Source: Methanomicrobiales archaeon HGW-Methanomicrobiales-1 (GTDB lineage Archaea; Halobacteriota; Methanomicrobia; Methanomicrobiales; Methanospirillaceae). From it: a DNA stretch of 64,000 nt. Location of the stretch: assembly GCA_002839675.1 (NCBI GenBank), contig PGYM01000001.1, forward strand, positions 734,683-798,682. The letters are read 5' to 3'. The position numbers and the translations under genes are program-made. Below, in pieces: positions 15,297 to 23,766 of the stretch. The notes under the pieces are model-generated. The model made no database searches. It had not been told where the DNA came from and was given only the letters and a program-made list of their open reading frames with translations. Each line of letters starts with the position of its first letter. The first letter of the stretch is position 1.

Positions 15297-15506
15297 GGAA
15301 TGGATTCCTGATTCTTTCTCTCTTTTTAAAATGTATAATCGTTATTCTTTTGCCGTGCATTGAATGAGTACGAGGGGGAAACTCCCGGTAAATATCATAA
15401 GATTTCCAGGGCCTGCTGACATAAATTTTATATTCTGACTTATATCCCACAAGGTTGATATTGCTCATCGCGGTATAATCATTCAATACGTTCTGGAATG
15501 TCTGTC

Positions 15507-16472
15507 ATGATTCACTTGTGGCAATCGGATTTATCGGTTACCGATATTGACCGGTTACAACAAAATGGTGATATACCGGCAATCATCCGGTTGCTCGGGC
15601 ATAAGGATTTCACTATCCAGTGGCATGCAGCTGATGCGCTGGGCACATTCGGGACAAAATCTACGCCACTTCTGATTGATGCCTTAAAATCATCTCTTGG
15701 AACAATCCGGCTTGGTGCGATCGAAGCGCTCAGTGTAATCCGGGATATACGAGCGGTTGAACCCCTCATTGAGGTACTGCATCACGATCCTATGAGCGAA
15801 GTGCAGTGGGCAGCGGTTCTTGCCCTTGGCAAAATTGGTTCTATGGAGGCGATACCTGAACTTGTCCGGTCTATGCAGGATGACAATCGCTATATCCGGT
15901 ACGGTGCTGCAGATGCACTGTTAAAAATGGACTGGCAGCCGGATAATGAGACAGATCGAATCTACCAGTTAATTGCCCTGCAGGACTGGGATGCAGTACG
16001 GGCATTGGGATCTGCTGCAACCGTTCCTCTCATGGATATTTTCCGGGATAAGGACCCGGCAACCCGCTCGGCGATTGTCTCAGTTCTTGGAGAGATCGGG
16101 GATACTTATTCCAAAACCGCCTGCCCTACAGCGCTGAGGGATCGGGATCCCACCGTGCGATGGAAAGCGGTACTGGCATCCATGAATTGCGGGGTTTCTT
16201 CCAGTAAGCTTCCTCTCATGCTTGCTGGACGTGATCGGATCGGTCCGAACCCGGCAGCAGCAGCACTCTTGAATTTCCTGTTCCTTGGTATCGGTTACAA
16301 TTACCTGGGCAAATGGTGGGGTTTTCCCGTTTTCATGGGGTACATGTCCCTGGTTGTTATGGCCCAACTGGCAGTCGGACCATTCCTTCCCTATCTTATC
16401 GCGTACCCGGTTACAGCAGTTTTTGCAGTACATACCTATTACCTGGCAGAGCGGATGTCCGATTCAGTGTGA
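15507..16472 (+). CDS. HEAT-repeat protein with C-terminal membrane hairpin, copy 1
   Basis: 321 residues from the ATG at 15507 (an ATG at 15498 is also possible). About residues 8-230 are tandem HEAT/PBS-lyase repeats of roughly 31 residues, with lines such as WHAADALGTFG, RLGAIEALSVIRD, VQWAAVLALGKIG and IRYGAADALLKM. A TM2-like membrane hairpin follows: NPAAAALLNFLFLGIGYNYLGKWWG and a further hydrophobic segment. The HEAT solenoid should face the cytoplasm as a protein-binding scaffold. The next gene is a paralogue, separated by eight bases. Confidence 0.85.
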   Translation: MIHLWQSDLSVTDIDRLQQNGDIPAIIRLLGHKDFTIQWHAADALGTFGTKSTPLLIDALKSSLGTIRLGAIEALSVIRDIRAVEPLIEVLHHDPMSEVQWAAVLALGKIGSMEAIPELVRSMQDDNRYIRYGAADALLKMDWQPDNETDRIYQLIALQDWDAVRALGSAATVPLMDIFRDKDPATRSAIVSVLGEIGDTYSKTACPTALRDRDPTVRWKAVLASMNCGVSSSKLPLMLAGRDRIGPNPAAAALLNFLFLGIGYNYLGKWWGFPVFMGYMSLVVMAQLAVGPFLPYLIAYPVTAVFAVHTYYLAERMSDSV

Positions 16473-16480
16473 GGATTCGT

Positions 16481-17446
16481 ATGATATTTTTAGATTGGTT
16501 CTTCAACAAAAAACCTGATACCGATCTCATCCTCCGGAAGCGGGATATCCCCGGTCTTATCCGGGTACTGTATTCCCGGAATCCAGAAATCCAGGCATCT
16601 GCGGTGCATGCACTGGGAAGTCTTGGATCTGGTGCTACAGAACCGCTTATCCTCGCGCTTCAGAAAAAGAACCGGAACCTCCGGTTAGGGGCAATAGGTG
16701 CTCTTGCTGAGATAAAGGATTCCCGGGCTGTCGCTTCGCTTATCAAAATGACCCGGGATCCCAGCAGCGAAATCCGCTGGCAGGCTGTAATTGCACTGGG
16801 GGAGATTGGTGATCCCGTTGCTTCTCCTGCAATTCTTGAAGCGCTCAGGGATACCGACAAGTATGTCCGGTACGGATCCGCAATCTCGCTCGTAAAAATT
16901 GGCCATAAACCCGCAGAAGAAATTGAATGGGCATGGTACTTTGCGGGAATGCAGGAATGGGAAAAATTAACGGAGCTCGACAGTCCGGCTTTACCCCCGC
17001 TGGAAAACCTTCTCCGGGATAAGGACAGTGAGGTTCGGATTAAGGCAGTAAAAACACTCGGTGAGATTGGCGACCGAAATGCCGGACCAGCACTTATCCG
17101 TTGCCTTGGCGATGAAAGCCGGCAGGTGCGCTGGGAAGCGGTACTTGCTTCTCAAAAATGCGGGGTTCCCCCGATGTACATGCCCCGGGGATTGTGCCAA
17201 CGGCCGCGCATGAAAAAGAATCCTTTGATTGCAGGATTTCTCAATTTCCTGCTGCCGGGTCTTGGGTATGGTTACATCGGCAAATGGTGGGGGATCATGA
17301 TCTTTCAGATCGATATCACCTTCACGGTATGGTTGTTCAAGGTCACTGGTGAAGCGAATACTTACGGAGTGCTGTTTCCTCTTTACCTGTTGTTGGGGAT
17401 CCATGCATGGTATATTACGAAGATAATGCCGGAGGAGCCGCCGTGA
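16481..17446 (+). CDS. HEAT-repeat protein with C-terminal membrane hairpin, copy 2
   Basis: The frame is open from 16313, but that part overlaps copy 1; ATG 16481 follows a GAGG site (16471) and gives a 321-residue protein, the same length as copy 1. HEAT lines include IQASAVHALGSLG, RLGAIGALAEIKDSRA, IRWQAVIALGEIGDP and VRYGSAISLVKIG. The C-terminus repeats the LNFLLPGLGYGYIGKWWG hairpin. The two genes clearly arose by tandem duplication and are probably one operon. Role unknown; a membrane-tethered scaffold is inferred. Confidence 0.87.
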   Translation: MIFLDWFFNKKPDTDLILRKRDIPGLIRVLYSRNPEIQASAVHALGSLGSGATEPLILALQKKNRNLRLGAIGALAEIKDSRAVASLIKMTRDPSSEIRWQAVIALGEIGDPVASPAILEALRDTDKYVRYGSAISLVKIGHKPAEEIEWAWYFAGMQEWEKLTELDSPALPPLENLLRDKDSEVRIKAVKTLGEIGDRNAGPALIRCLGDESRQVRWEAVLASQKCGVPPMYMPRGLCQRPRMKKNPLIAGFLNFLLPGLGYGYIGKWWGIMIFQIDITFTVWLFKVTGEANTYGVLFPLYLLLGIHAWYITKIMPEEPP

Positions 17447-17677: not shown

Positions 17678-19333
17678 ATGTCGGATTCGTTGTCGGTTAT
17701 AAAAACGGATAATGGATCAACCGGTGGACAACAAAAGGTGTATGAAATGGTGAAGAATGACAAAAGGATACAGAAAGGTAACGAGTGGGAAAAGAAACCT
17801 GTGATCCCGGGGAATAAAAGTGAGATGTCAAAAATTGGGGAAAAAAAGAAACATCCTCAACTTGTTGGGGAAAGGAATCCCTTCGCAGTATATCGGATAA
17901 TTCATAATATACATCCGATCCATCATACCAAAAGTGGTCCTCTCTCTCATCTTGATCCCGTTGTTAAACTGTTTTCCGAAATGACTTTCGAAGAAGTACG
18001 AAATTGTTTAACAGGATTAGCGAACAGCGATTTGACCTACGATCAGTTGTTTGATCCGCGGTGGGGATCATGCCTGTTTTGCCAGAAAACGATTGACGCC
18101 GTGAGAATGAAGCATATTCACGTTGAAGCAAACCCGGATACTATTGTTCCTGACCAGAAATCCAAGTCCTCATCGGAAACATATTCTACTAATGCATTGG
18201 TCGGTGGACCTCCCGATTATCTGAAGTGTACTCAAAATCTTGCCAATGCAACCTGGGAATTAAAAGATCGAACGAAACCTAATGACCCCGCCTCTTTACC
18301 CTGGAACTGGATGACCCCGATACCCAATCCCATATATTATGATTGTTTAGCCATGATACCACCCTGGTATGGAGATCCGTACCAGGGAGATGTTCTTGAT
18401 TGTTACCTGCTCGCGGCGCTCTCATCCATTGCATGGTACTATGCAGCAAATAAGCCAGTTACCAAAAATAAAATTGACGCTGATCCAACCATGGCGATCA
18501 AATTTTTAAAAACGGATAACACTCCTATCCAAGTCGTCAGTAACCAGGTTTTGGGAACGGTCGTGACTGATTACAGTCTTCCTTTAGATCCCCAGTCCTT
18601 ACCGGTGGGGGCGAAAACGAAAACCGGGGTAAGCTGGGTACCGTTTTATGAAAAGGCTTTTACACGATATCTGGAAACAATTGGGACGATCGTTCCACCA
18701 TCAGATCCGTACCATCCTGATATCTGCAGAATCCCCTGCGGTGATGCCGGGGAAACTCTGCGGGCTCTTATGAATAGAAACACCAATTATCTCAAAATAC
18801 ACGATATGAAAGGAAAACCAATAGGATCAGATGAACGTGATCCGATAAAGGTCTGGACAAAACTCAAGGGCATTTGTGAGACTCTGACGATTTCGAAAAC
18901 CGCTCAATGGAATGCATGGAAAGCCAAATATCCGGCCGTTGCCTGGACTAACTGTACTCGTGATCCGGATCTGTATCAGGATCCACCTCCCCATCCGGAT
19001 TGTGCAGCACCTCATGGTTCTGGGGTAGAATATGTGAGTGATCCTATCACTGCAAGTCATGCATATTCCCTGATGGGGCTTCATATGCTCAACTCAGTTC
19101 AATATGTCATATTCAGGGACCCGTGGGGCGAAAGCTATGGCTACGACCCGGAGCAGACAGCGTATTCTCTTTCACCGGGTCCGCTTATTTTTTACTCTAT
19201 TTTGGATACCGCGGGAGTACGATACTCCCCGACTATCTTTGATGGCCAGCAGCGCCCATTAAACGGTGTTTTTGCATTGAAAATTGAGGATTTTGTTAAA
19301 TTTTTCGCTGCTTTCAGCTGGGTGATAACTTAA
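17678..19333 (+). CDS. Calpain-like cysteine peptidase (papain-fold)
   Basis: 551 residues, no signal peptide. The first 200 residues are Lys-rich and of no known family. The catalytic part begins at about residue 225: GDPYQGDVLDCYLLAALSSI matches the calpain (family C2) block around the active-site Cys, here Cys242. A His in SHAYSLMGL is at residue 461 and the RDPWGES block follows. In calpains that block is N-P-W-G with a catalytic Asn; here it is Asp481. The long gap between Cys and His (219 residues) contains extra segments. A multi-exon eukaryote-like origin is not implied; prokaryotic calpain-like peptidases are known. Substrate unknown. Lower GC than its neighbours suggests recent gain. 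Confidence 0.75.
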   Translation: MSDSLSVIKTDNGSTGGQQKVYEMVKNDKRIQKGNEWEKKPVIPGNKSEMSKIGEKKKHPQLVGERNPFAVYRIIHNIHPIHHTKSGPLSHLDPVVKLFSEMTFEEVRNCLTGLANSDLTYDQLFDPRWGSCLFCQKTIDAVRMKHIHVEANPDTIVPDQKSKSSSETYSTNALVGGPPDYLKCTQNLANATWELKDRTKPNDPASLPWNWMTPIPNPIYYDCLAMIPPWYGDPYQGDVLDCYLLAALSSIAWYYAANKPVTKNKIDADPTMAIKFLKTDNTPIQVVSNQVLGTVVTDYSLPLDPQSLPVGAKTKTGVSWVPFYEKAFTRYLETIGTIVPPSDPYHPDICRIPCGDAGETLRALMNRNTNYLKIHDMKGKPIGSDERDPIKVWTKLKGICETLTISKTAQWNAWKAKYPAVAWTNCTRDPDLYQDPPPHPDCAAPHGSGVEYVSDPITASHAYSLMGLHMLNSVQYVIFRDPWGESYGYDPEQTAYSLSPGPLIFYSILDTAGVRYSPTIFDGQQRPLNGVFALKIEDFVKFFAAFSWVIT

Positions 19334-22695: not shown

Positions 22696-23766
22696 ATGAA
22701 ACGGATATCAGGTCTAGTCATTGTCATTCTGGTTCTTCTTTTCGCAGCTGTACTGATTGCCGGCTGCACGGATTCCACTCCCGCAACAACTCCTTCTGTA
22801 CAACCCTCCCCGACAACAACCCCAGAGACCACAGCTCTCTACATTGCAGGTGATATTGTCAGTCCAAAATCTGGAGCAGAAACAGGGTGGCTCATTCTAA
22901 AATATGATTCAGGGACTGATTCCTACGAAAGGGCCTTTATCTACAGAAATACTGATGGAAGCTGGGGCTACCGCGTTAATGCATTGACAGAGACCCTTAC
23001 CCGACCGATCCTCGAAAAAGTCAACGCGGTTAAAGTAACTCATGTTGATCCGTCCCAGGTACCTCTGAAGCAACCTGCCGTTACCACATCGATAATGACG
23101 GCTGCCATAACCCCCAGTACGGGTACGGCAACTACACCGGCAGTAACAGCAACCACCAGTACAATCGCACCCAAGATAAAGGGGATCGCTCCTGAGAACG
23201 GTTATGTGGGGACATCGGTCTCAATCACCGATATTCTGGGTGATGGATTCCAGAGCGGTGCCACTGTCAAGCTAGTACGGTCCGATGGCTCGAATATCTC
23301 TGCGACAAATGTAAATGTCTTTTCTCCTGCACATATCTCGTGTACGTTTTCCCTTCCATCGGATGCCGTAATTGGTGTCTGGGATATTATTGTTAGTAAC
23401 CCGGATGGGCAGTCATCCCGGTACAGCAATGGCTTCACGGTTCGTGTTAATCCTTCAGTGACCGCAACAACAACCACCTCATCAACAGGAGGTATCGATA
23501 TTACTTCCATAAATCCTGCATCCACTTATTCGAATTATCCAGCGGTAACGATATTCGGGTCCAATTTCAAGAATAACATTGCCTGCAAGCTGACCCGGAG
23601 TGGGAATGCTGATATTACTGCATCGTATGTATCACGAACCAGTGAGACACAAATGCAATGCTACTTCCCGATACCCACAGGGTCTTTCGGTACATGGAAC
23701 CTTGTTCTGACAAACACTGATGGCACGACAGGTACATTGACCAATAGTTTCTCAATAAATATCTAA
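22696..23766 (+). CDS. Lipoprotein with two IPT/TIG domains
   Basis: 356 residues. Signal peptide with lipobox IAGC, acceptor Cys24. A Thr/Pro-rich spacer, then a small domain (about 45-115) with GWLILKYDSGTDSYERAFIYRN. Another Thr-rich linker leads to two immunoglobulin-like IPT/TIG domains (about 155-250 and 268-356), each opening with an I..I.P..GY/TYSN pattern and ending in a WDIIVSNPDGQSS / WNLVLTNTDGTTG block. It is lipid-anchored outside the cell, and its linkers are typical of wall-spanning archaeal proteins. It belongs with the surface proteins just upstream. Confidence 0.82.
   Translation: MKRISGLVIVILVLLFAAVLIAGCTDSTPATTPSVQPSPTTTPETTALYIAGDIVSPKSGAETGWLILKYDSGTDSYERAFIYRNTDGSWGYRVNALTETLTRPILEKVNAVKVTHVDPSQVPLKQPAVTTSIMTAAITPSTGTATTPAVTATTSTIAPKIKGIAPENGYVGTSVSITDILGDGFQSGATVKLVRSDGSNISATNVNVFSPAHISCTFSLPSDAVIGVWDIIVSNPDGQSSRYSNGFTVRVNPSVTATTTTSSTGGIDITSINPASTYSNYPAVTIFGSNFKNNIACKLTRSGNADITASYVSRTSETQMQCYFPIPTGSFGTWNLVLTNTDGTTGTLTNSFSINI

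Follow-up and report, generated by a model that had tools for sequence, protein, structure and literature searches.

A calpain-like peptidase gene of Methanomicrobiales is paired with a gene for a predicted surface protein

The calpain-like gene and its predicted structure

The window analyzed here, a 64,000-nucleotide stretch of the genome of the methane-producing Methanomicrobiales archaeon HGW-Methanomicrobiales-1, contains a gene for a calpain-like protein, which is preceded by two HEAT-repeat genes and followed by a gene for a large surface protein (Table 1). A preliminary description made from the sequence alone had called the product an archaeal calpain-like peptidase with Cys242 and His461 in place, and our searches bear this out. 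With the Pfam Peptidase_C2 model, a search which that description had proposed, the protein scored 28.8 bits against a cutoff of 23.8, which places it in peptidase family C2, and the catalytic Cys and His and the oxyanion Gln of the family can all be read in its sequence. Single-sequence scans of the window protein gave no PDB sequence match, no NCBIfam match, and no relative in genome contigs, but alignment-based searches succeeded where these did not: a 61-sequence profile matched the calpain cores of the PDB, with calpain-8 at 1e-28 and with the catalytic residues in register. Within the 61-sequence alignment, where identities are only 20 to 35%, Gln236, Cys242, Glu325, and His461 are invariant, which argues for selection on catalysis. 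The window copy is the sole C2 gene found in its genome, and hydropathy analysis showed no signal peptide or transmembrane segment in the protein.

Table 1. Features of the locus, with positions counted from the first nucleotide of the window
Feature	Position	Strand	Evidence
HEAT-repeat protein 1, hydrophobic C-terminal region, in tandem with protein 2	15498..16472	+	PADLOC generic HEAT match; hydropathy; linkage
HEAT-repeat protein 2, hydrophobic C-terminal region	16481..17446	+	Pfam HEAT_2; linkage
Calpain-like (peptidase C2) gene, 551 aa	17678..19333	+	ORF; Pfam C2; AlphaFold2 model and PDB matches; hydropathy
Residues 1-60, Lys-rich low-confidence tail	17678..17857	+	pLDDT under 50 over residues 1-57; composition
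Residues 61-145, conserved N-terminal domain with the motifs GxRNP[FY]A and LFDPxxGSxLF	17858..18112	+	Alignments; pLDDT
Residues 174-551, predicted calpain protease core	18197..19330	+	VIA Z of 18.8 to 3bow and 18.7 to 6bjd
Gln236 (oxyanion hole) to Cys242 (nucleophile; codon tgt, 18401-18403)	18383..18403	+	Sequence; both invariant in family
Val318, aligned with Glu175 of calpain calcium site 1	18629..18631	+	Alignment; Glu in 53 of 61 sequences
His461, general base (codon cat)	19058..19060	+	Sequence; invariant in family
Asp481, replacing the calpain Asn (codon gac)	19118..19120	+	Sequence; Asn in 57 and Asp in 3 of 60
Partner surface protein, 1,019 aa	19360..22419	+	Pfam PKD/PD40; AlphaFold2 model; Foldseek

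Structure prediction points to the same family. The AlphaFold2 model of the window protein (mean pLDDT of 71, pTM of 0.78) has a calpain core, in agreement with the papain fold that the preliminary description had made its test. The best match was Ca-bound m-calpain (3bow), with a VIA Z of 18.8 and an rmsd of 4.0 over 247 residues, while the next fold class reached a Z of 8.5 and no non-calpain exceeded that value; the first 35 Foldseek matches of the model were all calpains. The human and rat calpain cores (3bow, 6bjd, and 1zcm) share the predicted fold over about 240 to 249 residues (Z of 18.2 to 18.8), but the identity is 16 to 20%, and the classical calpains have EF-hand or other C-terminal domains for which the window protein has no room.

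The preliminary description had also reported a 200-residue Lys-rich N terminus of no known type, and this holds in part. Residues 1 to 60 are indeed Lys-rich (12 Lys), but residues 61 to 145, with a pLDDT of about 80 to 90 across most of their length, are a conserved domain of the family, whose two motifs are present in the archaeal and in many bacterial homologues. We rejected the idea that the Lys-rich tail defines these proteins: among relatives, its length varies from 9 to 63 residues, and it is basic in some and only weakly charged in others, with a hydrophobic stretch in genomes G034 and G031. The N-terminal part of the model weakly resembles the pro-forms of papain-like enzymes (Z of 7.5 to 8.5), which at most hints at an inhibitory prodomain. 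In a rumen bacterium of the Paludibacteraceae (L058 6569-10778), three calpain genes lie in tandem, each with the conserved N-terminal motif region.

Catalytic variants, distribution, and origin

The third catalytic residue had been read as Asp481 and taken as the main oddity of the protein. The residue is Asp as described, but the emphasis on it does not hold. Asn is the third catalytic residue of family C2, and the window protein has Asp in its place; the family tolerates this, since Asp may replace this Asn in a protein that is possibly still functional, an example being yeast PalB, an accepted C2 member (PMC4631099). In the 61-row alignment, the position holds Asn in 57 sequences, Asp in three (the window, G179, and G017), and a gap in one; the archaeal rows come from a whole-genome search that is free of bias toward Asn, but bacterial Asp forms are undersampled, the bacterial rows having been found by peptide patterns that in one case include the Asn. 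Three separate changes are needed for Asp on the tree. Given these separate origins and the Asp of PalB, we judge Asp481 from the sequences to be a minor, lineage-private, and recurrent conservative swap. The residue probably orients His461 in place of the Asn, and the enzyme would stay active.

The calcium-binding positions were compared as well. At site 1, Asp96 is kept as Asp233, but Glu175 is replaced by Val318, and at site 2 the Glu292 of human and rat calpains corresponds to Tyr487; at the positions compared, the window protein thus does not have the core sites 1 and 2 of a classical calcium-dependent calpain. The loss of both the calcium-site Glu and the Asn could mean a weakened activity of the window copy.

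Of 232 Methanomicrobiales genomes, 45 have a calpain homologue by profile search. An even sample of 393 genomes from across the phylum gave 18 positives, all of them Methanomicrobiales and none from another order. When one genome of each GTDB species was scanned with two peptide patterns, one including the Asn, only bacterial relatives appeared outside Methanomicrobiales, and no calpain relative was found in the viral contigs searched. Contamination was rejected as an explanation, as copies in G034 and G175 lie on single-contig chromosomes beside archaeal genes. According to two reviews, of 2015 and 2022, archaea have no calpains (PMC4631099, PMC9380684). Some of these archaeal genes may already have been labeled by automated database annotation. 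The closest non-archaeal relatives are bacterial: the bacterial-type C2 calpains have the same C2 core, the same Gln, Cys, and His, and an NPWG-like third motif, and the N-terminal domain of the window protein is common to homologues from Bacteroidota, Chloroflexota, Methylophilus, and other bacteria. The window protein differs from them in its archaeal host, in Asp as the third residue, and in a fixed surface-protein neighbor unseen in bacteria.

The suggestion that the gene had come by transfer finds no support for any recent event. An unrooted 96-sequence tree has all 31 archaeal calpain rows on one side of a branch with an SH-aLRT of 91, which is not decisive, and the window calpain falls together with copies from its own genus (G034, G031, and G008). 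The locus is kept between conserved neighbors in two relatives, G008 and G006. A comparison of GC content with the neighboring genes, also proposed earlier, did show a low value for the calpain gene (44.6%, against a background of 50.9%), but other local genes are similarly low. An old acquisition from bacteria by the ancestor of the Methanomicrobiales may have taken place. Between the window and the G008 locus, identity is 82% for HEAT-repeat protein 2, 63% for the surface protein, and 36% for the calpain. Close calpain pairs have a dN/dS of about 0.2 to 0.4, indicating purifying selection. The low calpain identity at a conserved locus, taken with these ratios, indicates fast divergence under purifying selection with the active site fixed.

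The neighboring surface protein and the HEAT-repeat pair

The large surface protein downstream, already pointed out in the preliminary description, is no chance neighbor. From hydropathy, profile matches, and predicted structure, it has an N-terminal hydrophobic helix (residues 7 to 27), a beta-propeller (about 34 to 345), two PKD domains (about 346 to 515), a beta-rich C-region, a membrane helix region (975 to 1013), and a short basic tail. It thus shows the secretion helix, propeller, PKD domains, and anchor of archaeal propeller/PKD surface proteins. Its best Foldseek match is 1l0q, an archaeal surface-layer protein with propeller and PKD domains, with TolB next. Like the Methanosarcina protein 1l0q and the RIVW-repeat surface proteins (the RIVW motif is named in PMC2447325), the partner places a propeller before PKD domains in a secreted archaeal protein; unlike them, it has RIVW/TolB-like rather than YVTN blades, together with a long extra C-region, a C-terminal membrane helix, and a fixed calpain neighbor.

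In the window, 26 bp separate the calpain gene from the partner gene. Of the 47 archaeal calpain copies, five stop at contig ends and 42 have enough sequence after them for a test; all 42 are followed directly, in the same orientation, by a gene for a partner homologue. The pairing is kept even for divergent calpains of 250 to 300 residues that lack the N-terminal domain. No partner was present beside any of the bacterial homologues examined, and in genomes without a calpain the strongest partner matches lay at contig ends or covered only part of the protein. The calpain and partner trees have several clades in common (G019b with G171, G002 with G175, G032 with G017, G052 with G065, and the window with G008, G034, and G031). 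As some groupings found in both trees cross genera and G019 carries two complete pairs, the pair is inherited as a unit.

Some observations concern single loci. In G006 (L021 7610-10702), frame changes or stops interrupt the calpain as well as the partner, and in G180 (L194 2920-5784) there is one stop within the partner; either could reflect decay or assembly error. In the window, a lipoprotein-like gene with a LIAGC motif (22696-23766) comes after the partner, as do similar genes in G008 and G006. G176 and G173 (L187 1908-4808 and L188 2232-5012) encode a second protein with only the C-terminal half of the partner, joined to a different N terminus and without a calpain gene in the vicinity, which suggests that the C-region is a reusable module.

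The HEAT-repeat genes are less constant. A homologous tandem pair occurs in 60 of the 232 Methanomicrobiales genomes, comprising 43 of the 45 with a calpain and 17 of the 187 without one (Fisher P of 2e-30, uncorrected for relatedness, the genomes not being phylogenetically independent). In 20 of 30 loci, the HEAT genes adjoin the calpain-partner pair, before or after it; in some calpain genomes they lie apart from it, and they are also present without calpain. Where they do not adjoin the pair, they stand alone or beside giant PKD proteins. In G015, which has no calpain match, the HEAT pair (L227 4778-15998) is next to giant PKD surface proteins. The HEAT pair is therefore a frequent associate and not a fixed part of the calpain-partner unit. 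By the topology inferred from hydropathy, both HEAT proteins resemble cytoplasmic repeats attached to a membrane anchor.

Possible role of the gene pair

The calpain and the surface partner probably work together. Our preferred reading, which we hold tentatively, is that the calpain is a catalytically competent and soluble cytoplasmic C2 endopeptidase that makes limited, regulated cuts at the inner face of the membrane. It would be one half of a two-gene unit, the other half being the secreted, membrane-anchored beta-propeller/PKD protein, with the HEAT-repeat membrane proteins as a frequent further component. This reading starts from the C2 sequence and predicted fold, the invariant Gln, Cys, and His, the fixed and coinherited pair, and the co-occurrence of the HEAT genes, and adds by inference the activity, the cytoplasmic location, the substrate, and the direction of signal or control. 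The location is suggested by hydropathy and the partner model: the archaeal calpains have no evident signal peptide, and the partner has an N-terminal one as well as a C-terminal membrane helix and a short basic tail. Such a membrane-proximal protease might cut the tail of the partner, the precursor of the partner, or a membrane target that the two share, for example the HEAT proteins, and in doing so it would serve the surface protein or respond to it, so that binding at the surface could be coupled to proteolysis in the cytoplasm. The calpain divergence at the conserved locus is fast for a housekeeping regulator and counts against this model, as do the HEAT pairs that occur without a calpain or away from it and the loss of both the Asn and the calcium-site Glu in the window copy. 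A more elaborate arrangement, somewhat unlikely in our view, would unite the propeller protein as surface receptor, the HEAT proteins as membrane scaffold, and the cytoplasmic calpain in one complex, in which surface contact triggers regulated proteolysis inside the cell.

Alternatively, the calpain could be exported without a leader and act outside, where it would mature or shed the surface partner or digest an external protein. The tight pairing with a surface protein fits such a role, and some bacterial calpains are reported to be secreted or membrane associated (PMC4631099); we consider it unlikely, however, as by hydropathy none of the archaeal copies has a signal peptide or a C-terminal sorting helix, and no dedicated export gene is common to the loci.

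We give a low probability to a conflict module made up of the pair and the HEAT proteins, in which the surface receptor, on contact with a virus or rival, would release a cytoplasmic protease and so damage the cell or bring it to arrest. Its patchy presence, its fast divergence at a conserved locus, and its inheritance as a unit with tandem copies are what such a module might show. However, the selection on the calpain is purifying, housekeeping genes surround the loci, no viral contig encodes a relative, and PADLOC matched neither calpain nor partner and gave generic HEAT matches only, although a new type would not be listed there.

It also seems quite improbable that the window copy is a pseudoenzyme which only binds, with Asp481 and Val318 as marks of decay. 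The loss of the Asn and of the calcium-site Glu would fit, and the family includes many non-peptidase homologues (PMC4631099), but Cys, His, and Gln are retained, an Asp at this position is reported to be compatible with function in yeast PalB (PMC4631099), and the reading frames of both calpain and partner are intact. A recently transferred bacterial gene that landed by chance before a surface-protein gene, for which the low GC content and the bacterial nearest relatives might speak, is highly improbable and was rejected, given the tree, in which the archaeal copies take one side and the window copy falls within its genus, the same neighbor in every testable copy, and the similar GC content of other local genes.

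The result worth following is the archaeal calpain branch with its fixed surface-protein partner, rather than the Asp. The scenarios for the origin of eukaryotic calpains in the two reviews rest on the absence of calpains from archaea (PMC4631099, PMC9380684), and a diverse branch of archaeal calpains, spread over an order, alters this premise for the Archaea overall; the branch belongs to a lineage far from the one thought nearest to eukaryotes, and the tree presented here is unrooted. The functions of prokaryotic calpains are mostly unknown, and the fixed pair offers a concrete lead to them in the form of a candidate partner or substrate. If the receptor-scaffold-calpain complex is real, it would be an archaeal counterpart, separately evolved, of the membrane-coupled calpain signaling of eukaryotes.
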